From a virus, in the IMG/VR virus record IMGVR_UViG_3300028557_000049, positions 1-53,607 of that record: DNA of 53,607 bases; one strand, written 5' to 3'. Shown here one piece after another: positions 2,979 through 35,618 of the stretch. Made by a program: the position numbers and the translations under genes. The stretch's first letter is position 1; each line of letters begins with the position of its first letter. A model generated the notes under the pieces. It did not search any database and was not told the DNA's origin. It saw only the letters and a program-made list of their open reading frames with translations.

Positions 2979-3539
2979 TCATTTGATTTTTTCTTCGGCA
3001 ATTATACGCTTTAGTTTATCCACATAGCTTATATCCTCAGCATAGTTTTGTTTTAGATAAACAAAATAATCTGATTCAGTCTTTACATCATTGAGATATT
3101 GCGCTTGGTAAAACGCATAATCAACAACAGACTCTTGCCACGTCTCATAATACGCATGACCATTTTCCTCACCCTTATTCGTTGTTGGTCGCTTCTTAGC
3201 TACCTTCATTCCAAAAAGATTATTATTGGTCTTGAATATCTTGCTATTAAAGTTTCCACTTTCAAGCTTTGCTTGTGCATATATTATATGCGGAAATCTT
3301 ATATTCAATTCAAGCAAATATGACTTAAGCTTTGGTGGACTAAATGCCTTTTCCTTAAGAGATTCATTTATAATAATCATCTTGGTTTCTTGGCTAATCA
3401 ATCGAATATCATCCGTTCTATTAATTAAAATAGATAGGGTTATGCCCATCGTAATAATGATAACTACCACCAACCCAATTAGGATTGATAGCGTTATATT
3501 CTTATATTGTATTGATTGCTTATCGTAACGATATATCAT
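2979..3539 (-). CDS. Membrane-anchored N-acetylglucosaminidase (lysozyme-like)
   Basis: 186 residues. A single transmembrane helix at about residues 15-38 is followed by a linker and a glucosaminidase-type domain (about 65-186): AQAKLESGNFNSKIF carries the catalytic Glu (residue 93), followed by NNLFGMKV and YETWQESVVDYAFYQ, as in the Glucosaminidase (PF01832) family. Such enzymes cut the glycan strands of peptidoglycan. With an N-terminal signal anchor the domain would face the periplasm, which suits a lysis or wall-remodelling role, but it is also a fold used by host cells. It is a monocistronic unit behind the promoter at 3568-3599. No holin or spanin is seen next to it. Confidence 0.85.
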   Translation of the reverse strand: MIYRYDKQSIQYKNITLSILIGLVVVIIITMGITLSILINRTDDIRLISQETKMIIINESLKEKAFSPPKLKSYLLELNIRFPHIIYAQAKLESGNFNSKIFKTNNNLFGMKVAKKRPTTNKGEENGHAYYETWQESVVDYAFYQAQYLNDVKTESDYFVYLKQNYAEDISYVDKLKRIIAEEKIK

Positions 3540-3567
3540 GTAGTTCTTTTTTGGTTAATTTATAATG

Positions 3568-3599
3568 CTAAGATAAGCATAATAATCCAGACTTCCAAA
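3568..3599 (-). promoter_or_regulatory. Promoter of the glucosaminidase gene
   Basis: TTTGG-N19-TATCTTAG. The leader contains AATTAACCAAAAAA as in neighbouring units. Confidence 0.7.
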
Positions 3600-3601
3600 T
3601 T

Positions 3602-3811
3602 CTAAGCATTTATTTTTCGCTTGCTTGAATCTTTTACTACATTAATTAATTTAGCAAATAGCTCCTCATACATACCTTCATTGATTGGCTTGAGCCAATC
3701 AAAGTCATCAAGTGTCTTTAGGTCTTTAGAATCCTTCGTGCCTAATCGTATACCCCTAATATCATTGTCAATACGCTTAATTAATACATCTTCAAGAGTC
3801 TGTCTCGCCAT
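3602..3811 (-). CDS. Small unknown protein, 69 aa
   Basis: 69 residues beginning MARQTLEDVLIKRID. Strongly charged with a basic tail (KDSSKRKINA). Likely helical; no family recognised. No clear promoter is seen upstream: the nearest feature is the terminator hairpin of the GP88 gene, so it may be expressed by read-through. Confidence 0.55.
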   Translation of the reverse strand: MARQTLEDVLIKRIDNDIRGIRLGTKDSKDLKTLDDFDWLKPINEGMYEELFAKLINVVKDSSKRKINA

Positions 3812-3854
3812 ATGGGTTTATATTTTAGTTAATTTAAAAATCCTAATTCATATT

Positions 3855-3885
3855 AAAGAAAAACCCCACCATTTTCATAGTGGGG
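3855..3885 (-). terminator. Intrinsic terminator after the GP88 gene
   Basis: CCCCAC (3864-3869) pairs with GTGGGG (3880-3885) around a 10-base loop, and on the minus strand the stem is followed by TTTTTCTTT. It lies 28 bases past the stop of the gene ending at 3913. This is the clearest intrinsic terminator in the window. Confidence 0.85.
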
Positions 3886-3912
3886 AATCTCCAGCATCTA
3901 ACCAAAAATACT

Positions 3913-4776
3913 TTATTTGAATAATTCAACCACTTGTTCAGGTGTTGAATTCTTATCGCTCAACGAATAAATCGAAACTACCAAATCTTTTTTAACCTTT
4001 TTATAGGCCTTGGTTAATCTAGTCGATATGCTTTGCGTTCGTATCGCAAACCCACTACTAAACGCTAATGCATTATTAGCACCCTTACCAGTCATTTTCT
4101 TGTATTTCAAGCCACATACCACGCCACCTCGTTTATCTAAGAATCTTAGGTCGTCAGCATCCGCATTAATTACTTCATAACCCTCATAGGCTAGGGGCAA
4201 TGCATCAAATACCATTGCGGTATTGATACCCCTACTTAGCAATTCTATTGCCTTATCATGATTGGTTTCACTACGGCTAAACGTAAGGTGATAATTGCTA
4301 GGTAAAGCCTTATCAAAACGAGTATAGTTTTTAGTATAATCGTAAAATTGCACATCAGGAAATACCTCAAAGATATTCTTATTATCAAATATCTTAAACT
4401 TTTCCCATGTAATATCTGTAGTACCATTCAAGCGAAATACAGGTATCGCATTACCCTCATGCTTCTTGATTGCCTTGGCAATTTCAGCCTTAAGTTGGTG
4501 CAAAAATTCTACCCTATTAGATAGAAAGTATTCAGACTTGTTACGTCTACCTTGTTGTACACTAGTAAACATACCACCATTGCCACTACCTACTAGACAA
4601 CTTGCAGCACAACCACTACTGGCATGACTACATAGATTAATACCCTTGCTATTATCACGAAATGAACTCATGTAAAGGATATACGTTATATAAGGCAAAC
4701 CAAATGTAGCATCATTGGTTTTTAGCGATTTAATGGTTTTTGCATTGTTAGTGGTTAACAGTATTTGTCTTTTCAT
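3913..4776 (-). CDS. GP88-family phage protein
   Basis: 287 residues from MKRQILLTTN. The order of motifs, YITYILYMSS, then NLCSHASSGCAASCL, then FRLNGTTDITWEKF, then FYDYTKNY, then YHLTFSRSETNHDKA, then VFDALPLAYEGYEVINADADDLRFLD, is what I associate with the GP88 family (PF17338) found in many phages and of unknown function. The clustered cysteines suggest metal or cofactor binding. A longer frame starting with TTG at 4803 is rejected because that TTG is part of the -7 box. A 28-codon stub of a second GP88 gene lies at 5627-5713 beyond a homing endonuclease, so this intact copy may have arrived with the endonuclease (see findings). Confidence 0.8.
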   Translation of the reverse strand: MKRQILLTTNNAKTIKSLKTNDATFGLPYITYILYMSSFRDNSKGINLCSHASSGCAASCLVGSGNGGMFTSVQQGRRNKSEYFLSNRVEFLHQLKAEIAKAIKKHEGNAIPVFRLNGTTDITWEKFKIFDNKNIFEVFPDVQFYDYTKNYTRFDKALPSNYHLTFSRSETNHDKAIELLSRGINTAMVFDALPLAYEGYEVINADADDLRFLDKRGGVVCGLKYKKMTGKGANNALAFSSGFAIRTQSISTRLTKAYKKVKKDLVVSIYSLSDKNSTPEQVVELFK

Positions 4777-4800
4777 AATAGTGTTTTTGGTTTGATGTTT

Positions 4801-4832
4801 CAAAGATAATTATTCTTTTTGTAATTACCAAA
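4801..4832 (-). promoter_or_regulatory. Promoter of the intact GP88 gene
   Basis: TTTGG-N19-TATCTTTG, 25 bases upstream of the ATG at 4776. Confidence 0.8.
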
Positions 4833-4892
4833 TGTTTTTTACGATTAGGGTAAATTATTTACATTTTCGGGTTTTAACACATATTTATTAAT

Positions 4893-5630
4893 ATGAAAAA
4901 TAAAACAACCAAAAAACTAACAACAATAGATTTTGTTGAACGAGCCAAAATAATACATAACGATAAATATGATTATAGTTTATCCACATATGTTACCACA
5001 CATATTAAGGTTAAAATAATTTGTCCAATACATGGTGTGTTTGAACAATCACCACATAACCACTTAGCTGGTTTCAATTGTAAACAATGTAGTTCTGAAA
5101 ATACTGGTATTGAAAGAAGAGTAAAATTAATTGATTTTATTTCACAAGCAAATTTAATGCATAATAATTATTATGATTATTCTTTAGTTGAATATGTATC
5201 AGCCATAGAAAAGGTGGATATAGTTTGCCCAATACATGGTGTATTTAAACAAAAACCTAACGCACATATTGGACAAAAACAAGGTTGTCCAAGTTGTTAT
5301 CATCAAAAAATGAAAGATAATGGTGGAACGTGGTCGGCCATTGCTTGGCATAACACTGGCATCAAATCTAAAAATTTTGATGGGTTTAAATTATATGTAA
5401 TTCGATGCTTCAATGAAAATGAAGAATTCATAAAGATAGGTAAAACGTTTAATAAATTAAAAAAACGATTTAGTCAAATACCTTATAAATACGAAATAAT
5501 AAAAACCATAACATCAGAAAATGGTGAATATATTCATGAATTGGAAAAAAGGGTTAAACGTAAATATAATAAACATACATATTTACCTAAAACTAAGTTT
5601 GGTGGAATGTATGAATGTTTTAAAGTTTAG
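4893..5630 (+). CDS. GIY-YIG-type homing endonuclease with DUF723-like zinc modules
   Basis: 245 residues on the plus strand, against the local gene direction. Two similar modules (about residues 18-66 and 83-131) each carry CPIHGVFxQ-P-H and a later CxxC, as in the DUF723 zinc-binding repeats of homing endonucleases. The C-terminal part (about 165-245), LYVIRCFNENEEFIKIGKTF then a basic stretch, resembles a GIY-YIG/T5orf172 nuclease domain. No Bacteroidota-type promoter lies upstream on its strand. It sits between an intact GP88 gene and a GP88 stub, and its stop codon abuts the stub's breakpoint. A nuclease with this DNA-binding layout would be expected to cut GP88 genes lacking the insertion; that is inference. 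Confidence 0.8.
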   Translation: MKNKTTKKLTTIDFVERAKIIHNDKYDYSLSTYVTTHIKVKIICPIHGVFEQSPHNHLAGFNCKQCSSENTGIERRVKLIDFISQANLMHNNYYDYSLVEYVSAIEKVDIVCPIHGVFKQKPNAHIGQKQGCPSCYHQKMKDNGGTWSAIAWHNTGIKSKNFDGFKLYVIRCFNENEEFIKIGKTFNKLKKRFSQIPYKYEIIKTITSENGEYIHELEKRVKRKYNKHTYLPKTKFGGMYECFKV

Positions 5631-5713
5631 ATATACGTTATATATCCCAACTTTTCACCCTTGATAGTCTTAGCATTGTTGGTTGATAGTAAAGGCTTGC
5701 GCTTAATTTCCAT
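5627..5713 (-). pseudogene. 5' stub of a second GP88 gene
   Basis: Translates as MEIKRKPLLSTNNAKTIKGE then KLGYITYI and stops. The intact GP88 protein has MKRQILLTTNNAKTIKS and later LPYITYIL, so this is the first 28 codons of a diverged GP88 copy. It breaks off within a GATATACGTTATATA sequence shared by the two copies (about 4679-4693 and 5630-5644), exactly where the oppositely oriented endonuclease ends. It retains its own promoter (5745-5776). Confidence 0.85.
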
Positions 5714-5744
5714 GGCTGTAATTGTTTTGGGTTAATTGATGCTT

Positions 5745-5776
5745 CAAAGATAATACATTAATTCGAGATTTCCAAA
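5745..5776 (-). promoter_or_regulatory. Promoter left in front of the GP88 stub
   Basis: TTTGG-N19-TATCTTTG, with the conserved ATCAATTAACCCAAAACA leader. It now drives only a 28-codon stub and antisense RNA of the endonuclease. Confidence 0.8.
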
Positions 5777-6148
5777 TTAACTTTCAATTATTTCCTCTAA
5801 TCCGAAGTATTTTTTTATCTCATTTGCTTTTTCTAAGCCTTGTGTTGTAAGACCATTCTCATCCCAATTATCCACTTCATCATGCAATTTTTGCACCCTT
5901 GACAAAAATGATATACCTAATGCTTGTAATTCCTGTGGTAATAAATCAAAGACACCTTCATTATCAATAGCAGTATCTTCAAAATTATCAAGCCTTAAAC
6001 ATAGTTCTTTTGGTAGATGCCTACCAATAGCGCAGCCATCATAATACGAACACGTATATCTATCTCCTGTATTAACTCCACGATTCGTAGAATTAAAGTG
6101 CTTAATAGTATCTTCCAAAAAGGCCAATTGTAATTTAGATGTTTCCAT
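5777..6148 (-). CDS. Unknown protein, 123 aa
   Basis: 123 residues from METSKLQLAFLEDTIKHF. It contains CSYYDGCAIGRHLPKELC and a later helical, acidic region ending in LEEIIES. The cysteine-containing motif with GCAIGR recurs, from memory, in uncharacterised phage and plasmid proteins. Monocistronic unit behind the promoter at 6174-6205. Confidence 0.65.
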   Translation of the reverse strand: METSKLQLAFLEDTIKHFNSTNRGVNTGDRYTCSYYDGCAIGRHLPKELCLRLDNFEDTAIDNEGVFDLLPQELQALGISFLSRVQKLHDEVDNWDENGLTTQGLEKANEIKKYFGLEEIIES

Positions 6149-6173
6149 AGCTGTAATTGTTTTGTTGATACGT

Positions 6174-6205
6174 CAAAGATAAGTAATAATATTCAAACCA
6201 CCAAA
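6174..6205 (-). promoter_or_regulatory. Bacteroidota-type promoter
   Basis: TTTGG-N19-TATCTTTG, 26 bases upstream of the start at 6148. Confidence 0.8.
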
Positions 6206-6220
6206 TTAAATCATTGGTTT

Positions 6221-7012
6221 TTATCTCGATTCAATTTTAGTTAATTTAAACTTGGGAAATAGCTTTTTGATTTCAGATTGCTTTAATACCCCAAACCTAT
6301 CAAAACCCTCCAAGCATAATTTATTATCTGAAATAATCTTATCAACAATCGCTTGTTGCTCATCACGACTTATGGTTATCAAAGACCTGTCATGATTGCC
6401 CAAATAATATGGATTAACCGTTTCAATGGCATCACCATAATATGCGGTAATATATGCCTTAGCATCAACAGGTTTTAAATATGGTAACTCCTTAACATCA
6501 TAAGAATTCATTTCTTGCTTATATATATTCATAAAGCAATACTTGTTTTCCACCAAGTCAATAATCGTTATACCATCATTGTTGTCCTCAATGGTAAAAT
6601 CATTACGAATTTCGGGGTTGATACCATTAAGATACCAAGAAGAACCAATGCCAGCATTAACAAATGAATTATTAGTTGCTTGATAATTCATTATAAAACC
6701 AATCGCTGTGGTTATCTTTTCAATTGAATTAAAATCATTATTATAACCACCCGTTGTAAACGGACACTTATAAGAACCATACTTTTCAGTACCATCTTTA
6801 TGTGAAGTCTCAAATTGAGAACCAAATTCTAATAAACGCATTGCGTTAACTATTGCTGAACGACCATATAACCATTGGTTATAATAAACAAGTATAGTAT
6901 ACTTACTAGTACCTAATTCACTAACAGCTTTTTTCTTTTCAGCTACCGATTCAAAACGTAGGTAATTAACTGGATTAAGTATCCTTACGAAAATTTGATG
7001 TCTCTGTCCCAT
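6221..7012 (-). CDS. Conserved viral protein of unknown function (MGQRHQ family)
   Basis: 263 residues beginning MGQRHQIFVRILNP, with VYYNQWLYGRSAIVNAMRLL (about 41-61). This opening is one I associate with an uncharacterised family in phages and large DNA viruses. Mixed alpha/beta, no signal or membrane segment; the C-terminus is basic. Monocistronic behind the promoter at 7042-7073, in a run of single-gene units that looks like an early region. Confidence 0.7.
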   Translation of the reverse strand: MGQRHQIFVRILNPVNYLRFESVAEKKKAVSELGTSKYTILVYYNQWLYGRSAIVNAMRLLEFGSQFETSHKDGTEKYGSYKCPFTTGGYNNDFNSIEKITTAIGFIMNYQATNNSFVNAGIGSSWYLNGINPEIRNDFTIEDNNDGITIIDLVENKYCFMNIYKQEMNSYDVKELPYLKPVDAKAYITAYYGDAIETVNPYYLGNHDRSLITISRDEQQAIVDKIISDNKLCLEGFDRFGVLKQSEIKKLFPKFKLTKIESR

Positions 7013-13258: not shown

Positions 13259-14431
13259 TCATTCCATTGCTGGAACTGATTCGGGCAAACGTTGCCCTAT
13301 CATATTATATAATCTCATTCCCTCATGCTCAATATTAAGCGCAGCATTCTCATCCCTGTCTATAATCAATCCACATCCCTCACAGATAAACTCCCTGTCA
13401 GCTAATGTCAAGTTAACATTCTTCCAACCACAACATGAACATGTCTTACTGCTCGGATAAAACCTGTCAACAAACATCACTTCCCTTCCATGCCAAGCTG
13501 ATTTATATTCAATCTGTCTTCGCATCTCGCCTAGACTTAATTCTTGAATAGCTTTCGCCAATTTATGATTTTTAAGCATTCCACTTACATTCAAATCTTC
13601 CAGACAGATAACTTGGTTTTCGTTAACCAATCTGGTTGTGATATTATGAAGAAAATCATTCTTTTGATTTTTTATTTTCTCATGTAACCTTGCTAATTTA
13701 ATCTTAGCTTTATACCTGTTATTACTTCCTTTTTGTTTTTTAGAAAGCCTTTTTTGTAATCTAATCAGTTTTTCTTCTGATGTTCTTATCCACTTAGGGT
13801 TATCAATGGTTTCACCATTCGATAATGTAAGAAGTGTCTTGATTCCAAGGTCAATACCAACTGAATGATTAACTGGTTCATTCATTACACGAAGCAAATC
13901 ACCATCAATCAAGATGCTTGCATAATAATGACCACATTTCTTTCTTATTATTGTTATTGATTTGATTCCTGTTTTGTTCTTATACAAATAATCCTTATCC
14001 CGTTTGCTACATTCAAAATTAATACCATTAATTGTTTTAGTTAAATTTAACTTAGATTGAACCTCATCAAATGTTTTGCTTGCAACAGCCTCTTGTGGGA
14101 ATCTTGCTTTCTGTTCATCATGCTTTGATTTGAATTTAGGAAAACCTCTACCTTGTTTAAAGAAGTTCTTATAAGCCGTTTCAAGGTTAATGATTGATTG
14201 TTTAAGAACCTTTGTATTATGTTCTTTCAGCCATTCATAATCATTACGTAGATTACCATGAAAATACTTTCCAAGGTCAGAGAATGAAGTATTTGATTTA
14301 TCCGTTTCGTAACGTTGTTTCTTATAAGCAAGCGATTGATTAAAGACAAATCGATAAGAACCCAAGAGTGAGTTAATTCTCATCTCTTGGCTCTTATTCG
14401 GGTATAATCTAATCTTAATCGCTTTTAACAT
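13259..14431 (-). CDS. tnpB: TnpB RNA-guided nuclease of an IS605/IS607 element
   Basis: 390 residues. N-terminal OrfB/HTH region (about 1-50), then the RuvC-like core with all three acidic residues in their usual settings: D194 in GIDLGIKTLLTLS, E278 in VICLEDLNVSGM and D360 in LIIDRDENAALNI. A zinc ribbon (C331/C334 and C350/C353) lies between the last two. TnpB cuts DNA guided by an omega RNA and helps its element persist. Length and motifs are complete, so it should be active. Its start overlaps the stop of a cargo gene (TAATG), which ties its translation to that operon. Confidence 0.93.
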   Translation of the reverse strand: MLKAIKIRLYPNKSQEMRINSLLGSYRFVFNQSLAYKKQRYETDKSNTSFSDLGKYFHGNLRNDYEWLKEHNTKVLKQSIINLETAYKNFFKQGRGFPKFKSKHDEQKARFPQEAVASKTFDEVQSKLNLTKTINGINFECSKRDKDYLYKNKTGIKSITIIRKKCGHYYASILIDGDLLRVMNEPVNHSVGIDLGIKTLLTLSNGETIDNPKWIRTSEEKLIRLQKRLSKKQKGSNNRYKAKIKLARLHEKIKNQKNDFLHNITTRLVNENQVICLEDLNVSGMLKNHKLAKAIQELSLGEMRRQIEYKSAWHGREVMFVDRFYPSSKTCSCCGWKNVNLTLADREFICEGCGLIIDRDENAALNIEHEGMRLYNMIGQRLPESVPAME

Positions 14432-18225: not shown

Positions 18226-18450
18226 TTAATAATTTATACGGTTATTAAGTTCCATCCCAGATATCTTATAGCCTAGTTGTTTATAATCTTCGATTAATTG
18301 ATTGTGTTCACCCATAAGCTTAAGGTTTTCTTCATTATACTCATATACCCTTAGGCTAGATAATCTGCGCCCATCATACATCTTGGTCTTTTCTGGGAGT
18401 TCAACTACCTTCATTGGAAAATCCCAATATAGCTTTAGAATTACTTTCAT
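18226..18450 (-). CDS. Small unknown protein, 74 aa
   Basis: 74 residues from MKVILKLYWDFPMKVVELPE. The start at 18450 overlaps the stop of the gene at 18447 (ATGA); a longer frame from 18486 would invade that gene. Charged, likely alpha/beta. No family recognised. Confidence 0.6.
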   Translation of the reverse strand: MKVILKLYWDFPMKVVELPEKTKMYDGRRLSSLRVYEYNEENLKLMGEHNQLIEDYKQLGYKISGMELNNRINY

Positions 18451-18836
18451 ATTTGAATATGTTTTGATATTAATTCTTCTATACAAGCCAATTCAGCTTC
18501 CTCGTATGTTGGTCTAATATATTTTAATCTATCATCACCAAATAAACGAATGGTGGATGCGATACGTTCATCGTTATCCTTAAAGGTATGCCAAGCATAA
18601 CCTTCATCTACCTTGCTAATCTCTGAATCAGTATTATGTACCTGTCTAAACCATTTAAAGGCTTGCTGATATGTAGCGGCTGCAATAGGATTAAATTCTG
18701 TTTGCCTTTTATGGTGTGGGAAAACCAAATCAAACCCACCATAAGCATTAGAACAATACACAGCAAAACAATCTTCTTTAAACCCTAAACCCTCTATTGA
18801 TTTAGCCTCTTTTGGTCGTAAGAATAAATCTTCCAT
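18447..18836 (-). CDS. Conserved phage protein of unknown function, 129 aa
   Basis: 129 residues. The stretch AATYQQAFKWFRQVHNTDSE followed by YAWHTF resembles a small uncharacterised family seen in phages and plasmids of Bacteroidota; this is from memory. Helical and acidic at the C-terminus. It begins one base after the stop of the DUF262 gene, in the operon started at 19767. Confidence 0.6.
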   Translation of the reverse strand: MEDLFLRPKEAKSIEGLGFKEDCFAVYCSNAYGGFDLVFPHHKRQTEFNPIAAATYQQAFKWFRQVHNTDSEISKVDEGYAWHTFKDNDERIASTIRLFGDDRLKYIRPTYEEAELACIEELISKHIQI

Positions 18837-31552: not shown

Positions 31553-32725
31553 TTATTGGTTAGAGAGACTATAAACACCTCTATTATGAATATTGATGCT
31601 GGCGTTTACGTCAGCATCATTTTCATAACCACAGACAATACAATTAAAGGCTTCGCCTTTTCTATTGTTTTTATCTATATGACCACATGCGGAGCATGTT
31701 TGTGATGTATATGCTGGTGAAACCTTCACCAGATTAATTCCATATTCATCAGTAATTCTTTCTAATTTAAGTATAGTCTTAGTATAAGACCATCTTTGTA
31801 TTTTATTATTAAAATATTTTTTACCGGTTTTAACTGATTTTAGATCTTCTATAATTAAATCCTTTATATTATTTAATGGTAATTCATTACATATTTTGTT
31901 AATTTCATTATCCCTATGGGATAATGCTTTTTTAAATGCTTTACTACCTTGTTTCTTTCTACTTATTTTATTGTATATTTCAGTTAATTCACCATTATAT
32001 TTATTTCCATTATTATCACATAAGAGTTTATTATAACCCATATCCAATCCTAATGAAGAACCTTCGGTTCTTTTATTAGGATTTTCTTTAAACCATATTA
32101 AACTTATGTAATAATCATTATTAACTTTTCTAATCTGAATATTATTTCTTAAATTAAATCCTTCAGATAATAATTTATTAGAATGTTTATGATTATTTAA
32201 TGGAATATTAATTTGCAATGCTCTAGTACCTTTATCATTAAAATAAGGTAGCTTAAGATTAATAAAAGAATTAAAATGATTACCTGATTTTATATTAAAG
32301 AATCTTTCATCTAAATTAATAGATAAATTATTTAGATTAGGTATTTTAAAATATTTAGATTTAATAATAGATTTAAGATTTAGATTACTATATTTTATTT
32401 TAATAAATGAAGAATCAGGATGATTCTTCATCATATATGAATATATTTTTTTATAGTTATTATATCTTTTTTTATTAGCTTTATCTAATTGACTTCTTAT
32501 TATAGAAGATGCTTGTTTATAAATTAATTGTTTATATCTACTATGGTTAATAGTTTCAGATGGTAAATCTTTAGAGGATAAATTAATTTTAAGTGGTAAT
32601 ATTCCATCTATTATATAATTCATATAAGTTAATAAATCAGACTTATAATCAATAAATAATTTATCGAGGGAAGCAAGCTTCCCTTGATTACAATTTTTGA
32701 TTATATGTTTAGATGATTTAATCAT
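31553..32725 (-). CDS. TnpB-like RNA-guided nuclease, divergent
   Basis: 390 residues. Catalytic residues are all present: D228 in SLGLDMGYNKLL, E293 in DLIIEDLKSV, and D372 in NDADVNASINIH, with a zinc ribbon from C344/C347 and C362/C365. The N-terminal half (about 1-220) shares little with the TnpB at 13259 and is very rich in Asn, Ile and Lys, so it may have been in the phage for long or come from a different source. No transposase gene is next to it; instead an RHH gene overlaps its start. It could be a stand-alone homing-type nuclease rather than part of a transposon. Confidence 0.85.
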   Translation of the reverse strand: MIKSSKHIIKNCNQGKLASLDKLFIDYKSDLLTYMNYIIDGILPLKINLSSKDLPSETINHSRYKQLIYKQASSIIRSQLDKANKKRYNNYKKIYSYMMKNHPDSSFIKIKYSNLNLKSIIKSKYFKIPNLNNLSINLDERFFNIKSGNHFNSFINLKLPYFNDKGTRALQINIPLNNHKHSNKLLSEGFNLRNNIQIRKVNNDYYISLIWFKENPNKRTEGSSLGLDMGYNKLLCDNNGNKYNGELTEIYNKISRKKQGSKAFKKALSHRDNEINKICNELPLNNIKDLIIEDLKSVKTGKKYFNNKIQRWSYTKTILKLERITDEYGINLVKVSPAYTSQTCSACGHIDKNNRKGEAFNCIVCGYENDADVNASINIHNRGVYSLSNQ

Positions 32726-34119: not shown

Positions 34120-34311
34120 TTATTTTTTAAAGGGTTTTATCGTGACGAACATTCTTTTACCCTCAAGCTTTGGCATGGCTTCAGCTACACCATATTCTTC
34201 AAGGTCAACCAATAGCTTTAAGATTAATGTCTCACCCTTGGTTACGTGAATCATTTCACGCCCCTTAAATTGCATTGAAATCTTAACCTTTTTAATAAAA
34301 ATCTTGTTTAA
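34120..34311 (-). pseudogene. 3' stub of a second IF-3 gene
   Basis: The frame reads KVKISMQFKGREMIHVTKGE, then LLVDLEEYGVAEAMPKLEGK and RMFVTIKPFKK stop. The intact IF-3 (35124-35618) has KIKLSMEFKGREMLFTDKGM, then ELDKFGVAEGMPKLEGKKII. It is thus the last 55 to 60 codons of a diverged IF-3 gene. Similarity stops near 34290, and a TAG closes the frame upstream at 34315-34317. The RHH+HNH cassette lies between it and the intact IF-3. An ATG at 34275 could still give a C-terminal domain fragment. Confidence 0.9.
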
Positions 34312-34357: not shown

Positions 34358-34495
34358 ATGGCACGACCTAAATTATTAAAAGACGAAAAAAAGATAAAAC
34401 TTAGTATAACATTATCTAAAGATGTTAATTTAATATTAGAAAAATTAACAAAAAATAAATCTAAATTTATTGAGGAATTAATTAAAAATTTATAA
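34358..34495 (+). CDS. Ribbon-helix-helix protein, 45 aa, upstream of the HNH gene
   Basis: 45 residues on the plus strand: MARPKLLKDEKKIKLSITLS, then a helix (KDVNLILEKLTKNKSKFIEE). KIKLSITL is the ribbon strand of an RHH fold. Its stop lies 3 bases before the HNH start, so they form a two-gene cassette against the local direction. Found by reading the gap; too short for usual cut-offs. The same RHH-then-nuclease order is seen at 32718-32879/TnpB. Confidence 0.7.
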   Translation: MARPKLLKDEKKIKLSITLSKDVNLILEKLTKNKSKFIEELIKNL

Positions 34496-34498
34496 AAT

Positions 34499-35134
34499 AT
34501 GACACCAGAAGAGAAAATACAACATAGAAAAGAATATAATACAAAATGGCGTGAAGCTAATAAAGAACGCATTAAAAAAGAAGCAGCTGAACGCAGTAGA
34601 TTATGGTATAATGAAAATAAAGACAAAGCTAAAGAAACACAAAGAAAATACTATCAAGATAATATCGATAGTTTTAAAAATAAAAGTAAAAATTATCGTG
34701 TAAATAATTCAGATAAAATAAAAGAATATCAAAAAAATTATAGAAAAAACAATAATGAAAAACGAAACGAATATAATAAAAATAGACGATTAAATGACCC
34801 ACTATATAAGCTAACAACAAATATTAGGTCAAGCATTAATCAAGCTTTTAGAAGAAATTCATACACTAAAAAATCAAAAACTGCTGAAATATTAGGTTGT
34901 ACTTTTGATGAATTTAAACAACATCTAGAATCTAGATTTGAATCATGGATGACATGGGATAATCATGGATTGTACAACGGTGAATTAAATTACGGTTGGG
35001 ATATTGACCATATGATTCCATTAAGTAGTGTAAAAACGGAAAAAGAATTGATTAAATTATGTCACTTCACCAATATCAAACCGTTATGTAGTCGCATAAA
35101 TAGAGATATTAAAAAAAATACATTTATTTCTTAG
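34499..35134 (+). CDS. HNH homing-type endonuclease next to IF-3
   Basis: 211 residues on the plus strand. Residues 1-110 are a Lys/Asn/Arg-rich helical stretch with repeats (YRVNNSDKIKEYQKNYRKNN), typical of DNA-contacting arms. The HNH core is at about 165-205: YGWDIDHMIPLSSVKTEKEL, then LCHFTNIKPLCSRINRDIKK. Its last 11 bases overlap the IF-3 stop on the other strand. It separates the intact IF-3 from the IF-3 stub. Free-standing HNH genes of this size are common homing genes in phages. Confidence 0.88.
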   Translation: MTPEEKIQHRKEYNTKWREANKERIKKEAAERSRLWYNENKDKAKETQRKYYQDNIDSFKNKSKNYRVNNSDKIKEYQKNYRKNNNEKRNEYNKNRRLNDPLYKLTTNIRSSINQAFRRNSYTKKSKTAEILGCTFDEFKQHLESRFESWMTWDNHGLYNGELNYGWDIDHMIPLSSVKTEKELIKLCHFTNIKPLCSRINRDIKKNTFIS

Positions 35135-35618
35135 AAATTGGTTTAAGATATCCAATAATTTTTTTACCTTCAAGCTTTGGCATTCCTTCCGCAACGCCAA
35201 ATTTATCTAATTCTAATATAAATTTAAGTATAACTTCCATACCTTTATCGGTAAACAACATCTCACGGCCTTTAAATTCCATTGAAAGTTTTATCTTATG
35301 GCCAATCTTAAGAAAATTTTCAGCATGTTTAATTCGATAATCTAAATCATTTTGTCCAATTTTATAAGAAAGTTTGATTTCCTTAGTGTTTAAGGTTTTT
35401 TGTTTTTGTTGTTTATTTTGATTGTAAACATATTTTTCATAATTCATAATCTTGCATACAGGTGGCTGAGCATTTGGATTTATAAGTACCAAATCCATAT
35501 CTTGAGACTCAGCCATCGTTAGAGCTTCTGATAATGGCATAATACCTACATCTGAAATCCTAACGTCAGTCCCACGAATTTCCTTATTGATTAAGTGTTG
35601 TTTTTTACTCTTTTGCAT
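35124..35618 (-). CDS. infC: Translation initiation factor IF-3
   Basis: 164 residues, full length for IF-3. N-terminal domain: INKEIRGTDVRISDV, EALTMAESQDMDLVLINPNA, PPVCKIMNYEKYVYNQNKQQ. C-terminal domain: TKEIKLSYKIGQNDLDYRIK, then SMEFKGREMLF and FGVAEGMPKLEGKKIIGYL. IF-3 binds the 30S subunit, keeps 50S away and checks the start codon and initiator tRNA, so a phage copy could bias initiation towards phage mRNA. It starts with ATG directly after the previous stop (no gap), in the operon begun at 38872. Its base composition is more AT-rich than that of the stub at 34120-34311. It is expected to be functional. Confidence 0.93.
   Translation of the reverse strand: MQKSKKQHLINKEIRGTDVRISDVGIMPLSEALTMAESQDMDLVLINPNAQPPVCKIMNYEKYVYNQNKQQKQKTLNTKEIKLSYKIGQNDLDYRIKHAENFLKIGHKIKLSMEFKGREMLFTDKGMEVILKFILELDKFGVAEGMPKLEGKKIIGYLKPISKK

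Follow-up and report, generated by a model that had tools for sequence, protein, structure and literature searches.

The GP88 locus

On the minus strand of the window, as we call the whole 53,607-nucleotide stretch of viral DNA analysed here (IMG/VR record IMGVR_UViG_3300028557_000049), lie an intact GP88 gene and the 5' remnant of another, and a gene for a homing-type nuclease occupies the plus strand between them. The features are as follows.

3913-4776 (-): intact GP88 gene, 287 aa (PF17338, E=1.3e-41; phrog_1617, E=4.6e-57)
4678-4776 (-): codons 1-33 of that gene, a putatively foreign replacement 5' end with a 7-residue insertion
4678-4692 (-): 15-nt perfect repeat, intact-gene copy, encoding YITYI
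4801-4832 (-): promoter of the intact gene, Bacteroidetes-type by its sequence, TTTG-N20-TATCTTTG
4893-5630 (+): homing-type nuclease, 245 aa, with zinc-ribbon repeats (DUF723/DUF4379) and a C-terminal T5orf172 domain (GIY-YIG superfamily)
5394-5582 (+): T5orf172 catalytic domain, residues 168-230 (PF10544, 23.8 bits; curated cut-off, 20)
5627-5713 (-): 5' stub of the former resident GP88 gene, 28 codons of canonical type and a stop made by the junction
5630-5644 (-): 15-nt perfect repeat, stub copy, flush with the nuclease stop
5745-5776 (-): promoter of the stub, by its sequence again TTTG-N20-TATCTTTG

The stub (5713-5627, minus strand) is translated as MEIKRKPLLSTNNAKTIKGEKLGYITYI followed by a stop, and its TAA (5627-5629) overlaps the TAG of the opposite-strand nuclease (5628-5630). 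The same promoter form is present at both GP88 copies, and the 15-mer at 5630-5644 and 4678-4692 is GATATACGTTATATA. The first-pass annotation had placed stub, promoters, nuclease and intact gene in just this way, with the break at a sequence common to both copies and coding for YITYI; all of this was borne out, the common sequence amounting to 15 identical nucleotides flush with the nuclease stop, and the anatomy is replicated in an independent contig described below. In an all-against-all comparison of the window's reading frames, stub and intact gene are 57.6% identical in amino acid sequence over 33 aligned columns (E=5e-4), and given this value together with the matching position and strand, the similarity is not attributable to chance.

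On sequence grounds the nuclease is a member of the T5orf172 branch of the GIY-YIG superfamily, as PF10544 scores above its cut-off and the predicted catalytic residues are conserved (Y168, K181, G183, R192, E218 and E241 are invariant in the aligned relatives). An AlphaFold2 model has a mean pLDDT of 82, and a Foldseek search against the PDB gave no usable match. Elsewhere in the window, a small open reading frame (18226-18486, minus strand) is 36% identical over 42 aa to the catalytic region of the nuclease, and by that similarity is possibly another GIY-YIG protein, perhaps a remnant. A group I intron or intein at GP88 was considered and rejected: the gene is contiguous and has its own promoter and start, the nuclease lies on the opposite strand, and an Rfam search of 3500-6300 returned no intron match at E<=1.

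Two lineages of GP88 5' end

The 5' ends of the two copies were aligned with those of the best ~80 viral GP88 loci. The stub is of the canonical type, identical to locus L004 at 24 of 28 residues and to L001 at 23 of 26. The intact gene begins MKRQILLTTNNAKTIKSLKTNDATFGLPYITYI, which includes the 7-residue insertion, located a few codons away from the stub break; among these best ~80 relatives the insertion is otherwise found only in L002, with which the window's protein is identical at 25 of 33 positions without a gap. By this alignment the two 5' ends are of different GP88 lineages, which divergence between two copies of a single resident gene does not explain by itself.

Where the foreign sequence would give way to the resident sequence in the window is placed by analogy with L013 (below), given that DNA identity to the relatives is ~67% along the entire gene, a level at which the limit cannot be fixed. 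Maximum-chi-square tests for mosaicism in the window's GP88 were weak (p 0.01-0.6), and its likeness to L002 is not clearly limited to the 5' end. No empty-site sibling of the window was present among the best 80 GP88 loci. A stub beside an intact GP88 gene in the absence of the nuclease, which the first-pass annotation had held to count against its reading, was looked for in nuclease-free GP88 relatives and none was found.

An occupied and an empty site

The same arrangement occurs in the independent contig L013, which carries a stub (MSYYVPTNLLSTNNAKT), a nuclease 45% identical to that of the window, and an intact GP88 gene. A near-identical sibling, L011 (98% over 1,752 and 1,038 nt farther downstream), has a single uninterrupted GP88 gene and no stub, and nothing related to the GP88 nuclease is present in its 95-kb record. 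The leader and stub of L013 track L011 almost base for base until the nuclease stop is reached. The intact gene of L013 matches L011 at 37 of 60 positions in the leader and 43 of 60 in the block of first codons (62-72% identical), and from the codon where the stub ends onward at ~95%.

It follows from this alignment that the L013 element comprises the nuclease, a foreign promoter and leader, and ~17 foreign codons at the gene start, the junction with the resident gene lying at AATGCAAAAACTA. The L013 insertion is, as far as sequence can tell, clean, and its GP88 body after codon ~17 is resident. An insertion present in one and absent from the other of two near-identical genomes is what is looked for in a homing element, and a foreign end on a resident body, with the native end left as a duplicate, is the arrangement of the fungal mORFs discussed below. 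The window's two ends belong to separate lineages, and its GP88 body may be resident or may in part have been replaced along with the 5' end. The first-pass annotation had proposed a replacement of the target gene; that a replacement travels with the nuclease is strongly supported, yet where its extent can be resolved, in L013 against L011, it covers only the promoter and first ~17 codons and not the whole gene.

A proposed mechanism

We consider it probable (roughly 0.75) that a free-standing homing element occupies 4678-5630 and makes its target whole again by means of a diverged replacement end. The sequences themselves show the anatomy, the two lineages of 5' end, the empty site of L011 beside L013, and recurrence at many genes with different nucleases; cleavage, the position of the cut, the mobility of the element and the resistance of its replacement end are what we infer from these comparisons. 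The element would comprise the gene for the GIY-YIG-superfamily nuclease and, divergently oriented, a promoter, leader and replacement for GP88 codons 1 to ~33. When a coinfecting phage lacks the element, its GP88 gene would be cut by the nuclease near codons 17-33, and repair from the element-bearing genome would copy both the nuclease and the replacement 5' end, the reading frame continuing from the latter into the body of the resident gene. The former 5' end would then stay upstream as a stub, terminating where the nuclease terminates. Since the outcome is once more an intact GP88 gene, renewed cutting of the site has to be avoided, and it is thus reasonable to postulate that the replacement end is a different allele around the break. 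That this end would resist cutting, as the word 'uncleavable' in the first-pass annotation implies, is deduced from divergence at the break, which takes the form of a 7-codon insertion in the window, about 28% of nucleotides in L013, and diverged AT-rich tails in the IF-3 cases described below. The conserved catalytic residues and the absent intron match fit such a mechanism of cleavage and repair.

A variant in which the nuclease carries an entire replacement GP88 gene, rather than a 5' end, would be in keeping with the window, where the intact gene is not demonstrably chimeric and may resemble L002 beyond the 5' portion as well. We nevertheless regard it as unlikely, because the L013 gene past codon ~17 is resident and L011-like, and because the rest of the resident GP88 gene is missing from the window; the old body must have been either replaced or reused, and reuse is the simpler.

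Slightly less probable again is an old tandem duplication of GP88, into the upstream copy of which a nuclease later entered, with loss of the remainder of that copy. The 5' ends have diverged in the manner of an old pair, and in L046 a second complete GP88 gene does lie about 3 kb from the first. This history, which the first-pass annotation had itself named as fatal to its proposal, is not compatible with the alignment of L013 and L011, by which such a pair is excluded in L013: the sibling that is 98% identical around the site has one GP88 gene, and duplication plus deletion does not predict a switch from foreign to resident sequence at the very codon where the stub ends. The same flush arrangement, moreover, is found at unrelated genes and at 3' ends.

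The IF-3 element

A second case, at the 3' end of the gene for IF-3, had been proposed by the first-pass annotation and proves to be real:

about 34120-34296 (-): 3' stub of the former IF-3 gene, 37% GC against 29% in the intact tail
34499-35134 (+): HNH-type nuclease at the IF-3 3' end, whose relatives share the signature WDIDHIIPLS...NR
35124-35618 (-): intact IF-3 gene, with an AT-rich, L188-like 3' part

In the window, the best match of the intact tail is L188 (79%); the stub resembles other lineages more, at up to 71%. Another IF-3 case is found in L210, where synteny is the same and the tail is different. In both, GC content is 32-44% over the first third of IF-3 and 20-31% for the remainder, and the stubs (37% in the window, 41% in L210) stand against 24-29% in the intact tails. 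By these values, replacement at IF-3 has probably covered more than the length of the stub. Upstream of the nuclease lies a small gene for a ribbon-helix-helix-like protein (34358-34495, plus strand, beginning MARPKLLKDEKKIKLSITLSKDV), and a similar one lies ahead of the nuclease in the helicase element of L182 (2825-2998, plus strand, beginning MRNKLEEEKKKVRISLTIDPEI); this protein may repress the nuclease and move together with it.

Recurrence at other phage genes

The GP88 nuclease and the HNH nuclease at IF-3 each served to collect relatives, and across the sampled loci the combination of stub, nuclease and intact gene was found in 15 cases at 13 target genes (13 of 143 automatically tested nuclease genes and two found otherwise).

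GP88 (window, L013): 5' stub; nuclease with T5orf172 and zinc ribbons
IF-3 (window, L210): 3' stub in the window; HNH-like nuclease
Baseplate wedge gene (L089): zinc-ribbon nuclease with another C-terminal domain
gp32-like SSB (L094): leader of ~230 nt and 8 codons duplicated; zinc-ribbon nuclease with another C-terminal domain
gp23 capsid gene (L136): duplication of the final 11 codons with the terminator
UvdE (L147): stub, nuclease and intact gene
SNF2 helicase (L182): nuclease C-terminus extended in frame by 70 stub codons; zinc-ribbon nuclease with another C-terminal domain
DNA primase (L272): 3' stub that lacks its own start
Three small or uncharacterised genes (L250 twice, L221): in L250a and L221 a 3' stub without a start of its own
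L278: stub fused to the nuclease C-terminus
RuvC-like gene (L247): GIY-YIG+NUMOD3 nuclease

That a nuclease travelling with a replacement is a general strategy, as the first-pass annotation had suggested from its two cases, is thereby upheld by L013 with its sibling L011, by L210 and by eleven further genes. At the 5' breaks, perfect repeats flush with the break measure 15 nt in the window, 13 in L013, 31 in L089, 14 in L147 and 8 in L247, which reads as though the resident sequence resumed just inside the break. The helicase copies of L182 differ by 21 synonymous and 11 non-synonymous codons out of 71; in L136 and L250b, which tells against the proposed mechanism, the two copies are nearly identical, with no recoding visible within the duplicated part.

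Several of these loci have peculiarities of their own. The displaced 3' stub is fused in frame to the nuclease C-terminus in L136 (4866-5459), L182 (2995-3894) and L278 (3387-4103), and these nucleases use the stub as their own tail and stop codon. The SNF2 helicase of L182 (43-2772) also contains an intein (PF14890), such that two homing strategies meet in one gene. L250, which is the contig of GP88 locus L004, has two stub-leaving HNH elements within 3 kb (3429-4088 and 5245-5895); one more HNH gene related to these, the third, lies at 6908.

That the 28-aa stub peptide or a regulatory transcript is under selection is very improbable, as recency alone suffices to explain the retained promoter, start codon and in-frame stop, the stubs of L250a, L272 and L221 are 3' ends without their own start, and those of L136, L182 and L278 are fused to the nuclease.

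Controls

A statistic on flanking repeats, when run on control open reading frames, picked up many leader repeats and tandem paralogues, and a stricter stub criterion was adopted instead; the calls of the repeat statistic at L103, L116 and L134 were rejected as mis-set ORF ends, and those at L106/L108 as low complexity. The one automated stub criterion was applied to 143 nuclease genes and 340 control ORFs. It flagged 14 of the former, 13 being real stubs and the other, L126, being rejected as a paralogue of the nuclease domain; L094, found through its leader repeat, is additional to this count. Five of the 340 controls were flagged, four being tandem paralogues (the 'insert' being the second copy) and one a true stub, L247, which adjoins a GIY-YIG+NUMOD3 homing nuclease that the nuclease queries had missed. 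Free stubs are thus found at 10/143 nuclease genes and 1/340 controls (p=3e-5), and p=0.003 when the window, L013 and L210 are left out, these having prompted the search or been reached via GP88 or IF-3. About 90% of the tested nuclease genes have no stub, a point against the proposed mechanism. Nor was a stub found at the related nucleases of the isolate phages examined: Vibrio K389, Salmonella 64795_sal3, Pseudanabaena PA-SR01, Klebsiella KP13-7, Flavobacterium elemoA, elemoB and Fpv3, Escherichia Bas82 and Pseudomonas phi1.

These counts bear upon the notion that illegitimate recombination set an inactive or unrelated nuclease beside a duplicated gene start, the nuclease not being the cause. 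Short perfect repeats at the junctions (8-31 nt) do resemble joining by microhomology. True stubs, however, occur at nuclease genes and at no other controls, the sole control stub itself flanking a nuclease, and the catalytic residues are conserved across the nuclease relatives; we hold this account to be quite improbable.

Genomic context

A megablast search of the window's first 20 kb against isolate phages gave no match. Relatives of GP88, IF-3 and the HNH nuclease occur together on contigs of 124-368 kb (L001/L194, L005/L210, L006/L130/L188, L007/L202 and L020/L189), and given this co-occurrence the window probably derives, as a fragment, from one of the large Bacteroidota phages in this group. 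Two TnpB/OrfB-like genes (31553-32725, and 13259-14431 on the minus strand), about 25% identical to one another, are also present in the window. In L109 and L289, several neighbouring genes have a common short N-terminal motif, M-x-K-x-I-R-L-T-E-x-D-L-x-R-I, which is perhaps a common targeting or packaging peptide; similar short motifs are seen in L234.

Discussion

The closest parallel to these elements lies in fungal mitochondria, where mORFs with a duplicated C-terminus are described for atp6 of Allomyces macrogynus and for atp6, atp9, cox2 and nad3 of Glomus sp. (PMC3630166). In the parts of that account available to us, an endonuclease gene is inserted together with a foreign, diverged gene end, the native end is the far-side duplicate, and a hybrid gene is restored; these cases are mitochondrial, employ LAGLIDADG or GIY-YIG nucleases, and concern C-terminal ends only (PMC3630166). 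The phage elements, in contrast, employ GIY-YIG, HNH and other zinc-ribbon nucleases, affect both 5' and 3' ends, and at 5' ends bring their own promoter. The resemblance is one of mechanism, by analogy, and the nuclease classes differ.

Among phage nucleases, SegF, SegG and MobE of T4 are likewise free-standing and located beside a presumed target gene, and intronless homing in T4, as is proposed here, proceeds through repair of a double-strand break in which the neighbouring sequence is co-converted (PMC2988022). Unlike the GP88 nuclease, they lie between genes with cleavage sites at least hundreds of bp off, and the sections consulted describe no stub of the target gene (PMC2988022). The T5orf172 homing endonuclease genes (HEGs) of ICP1 and its relatives, with CapR/DUF723/DUF4379 zinc fingers, have the same architecture as the GP88 nuclease and border essential genes; neither a replacement end nor a stub is described in the excerpts of that source (PMC10448857). 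In mobE within nrdA of Aeh1 and mobA within gene 60 of T4, a nuclease gene also sits inside an essential phage gene, but according to the available extracts the gene remains split and the two polypeptides assemble. In the elements reported here, the gene is complete, and all that is lost is a single short end.

The HomeR drive is said to carry a recoded rescue of its target. It shares with the phage elements a homing nuclease aimed at an essential gene, and, as far as the portion of the report at hand goes, is an engineered CRISPR drive in Drosophila (PMC7968924), whereas the phage element is natural and its resistance putative. No phage description of an anatomy of stub plus replacement end was found in the open-access literature. 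The replacement-end logic is known from fungal mitochondria, and its occurrence in phages, which is recurrent and testable, is apparently new within that literature.

We lean towards the broader view that phages, including large Bacteroidota phages, host a widespread natural class of 'home-and-rescue' elements, in which several unrelated kinds of nuclease would have converged on carrying diverged 5' or 3' ends of their target genes. Each stub would approximately mark the site of cleavage, so that target sites would be predictable from sequence. If this is true, such elements constitute a natural counterpart to engineered drives with recoded rescue and a third route, besides introns and inteins, by which a homing nuclease may reside in a conserved phage gene without killing it. 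They would invade coding sequence in the absence of either device and drive the replacement of gene ends in conserved phage genes, and ultimately would account for gene-end mosaicism and for short gene stubs in phage genomes.
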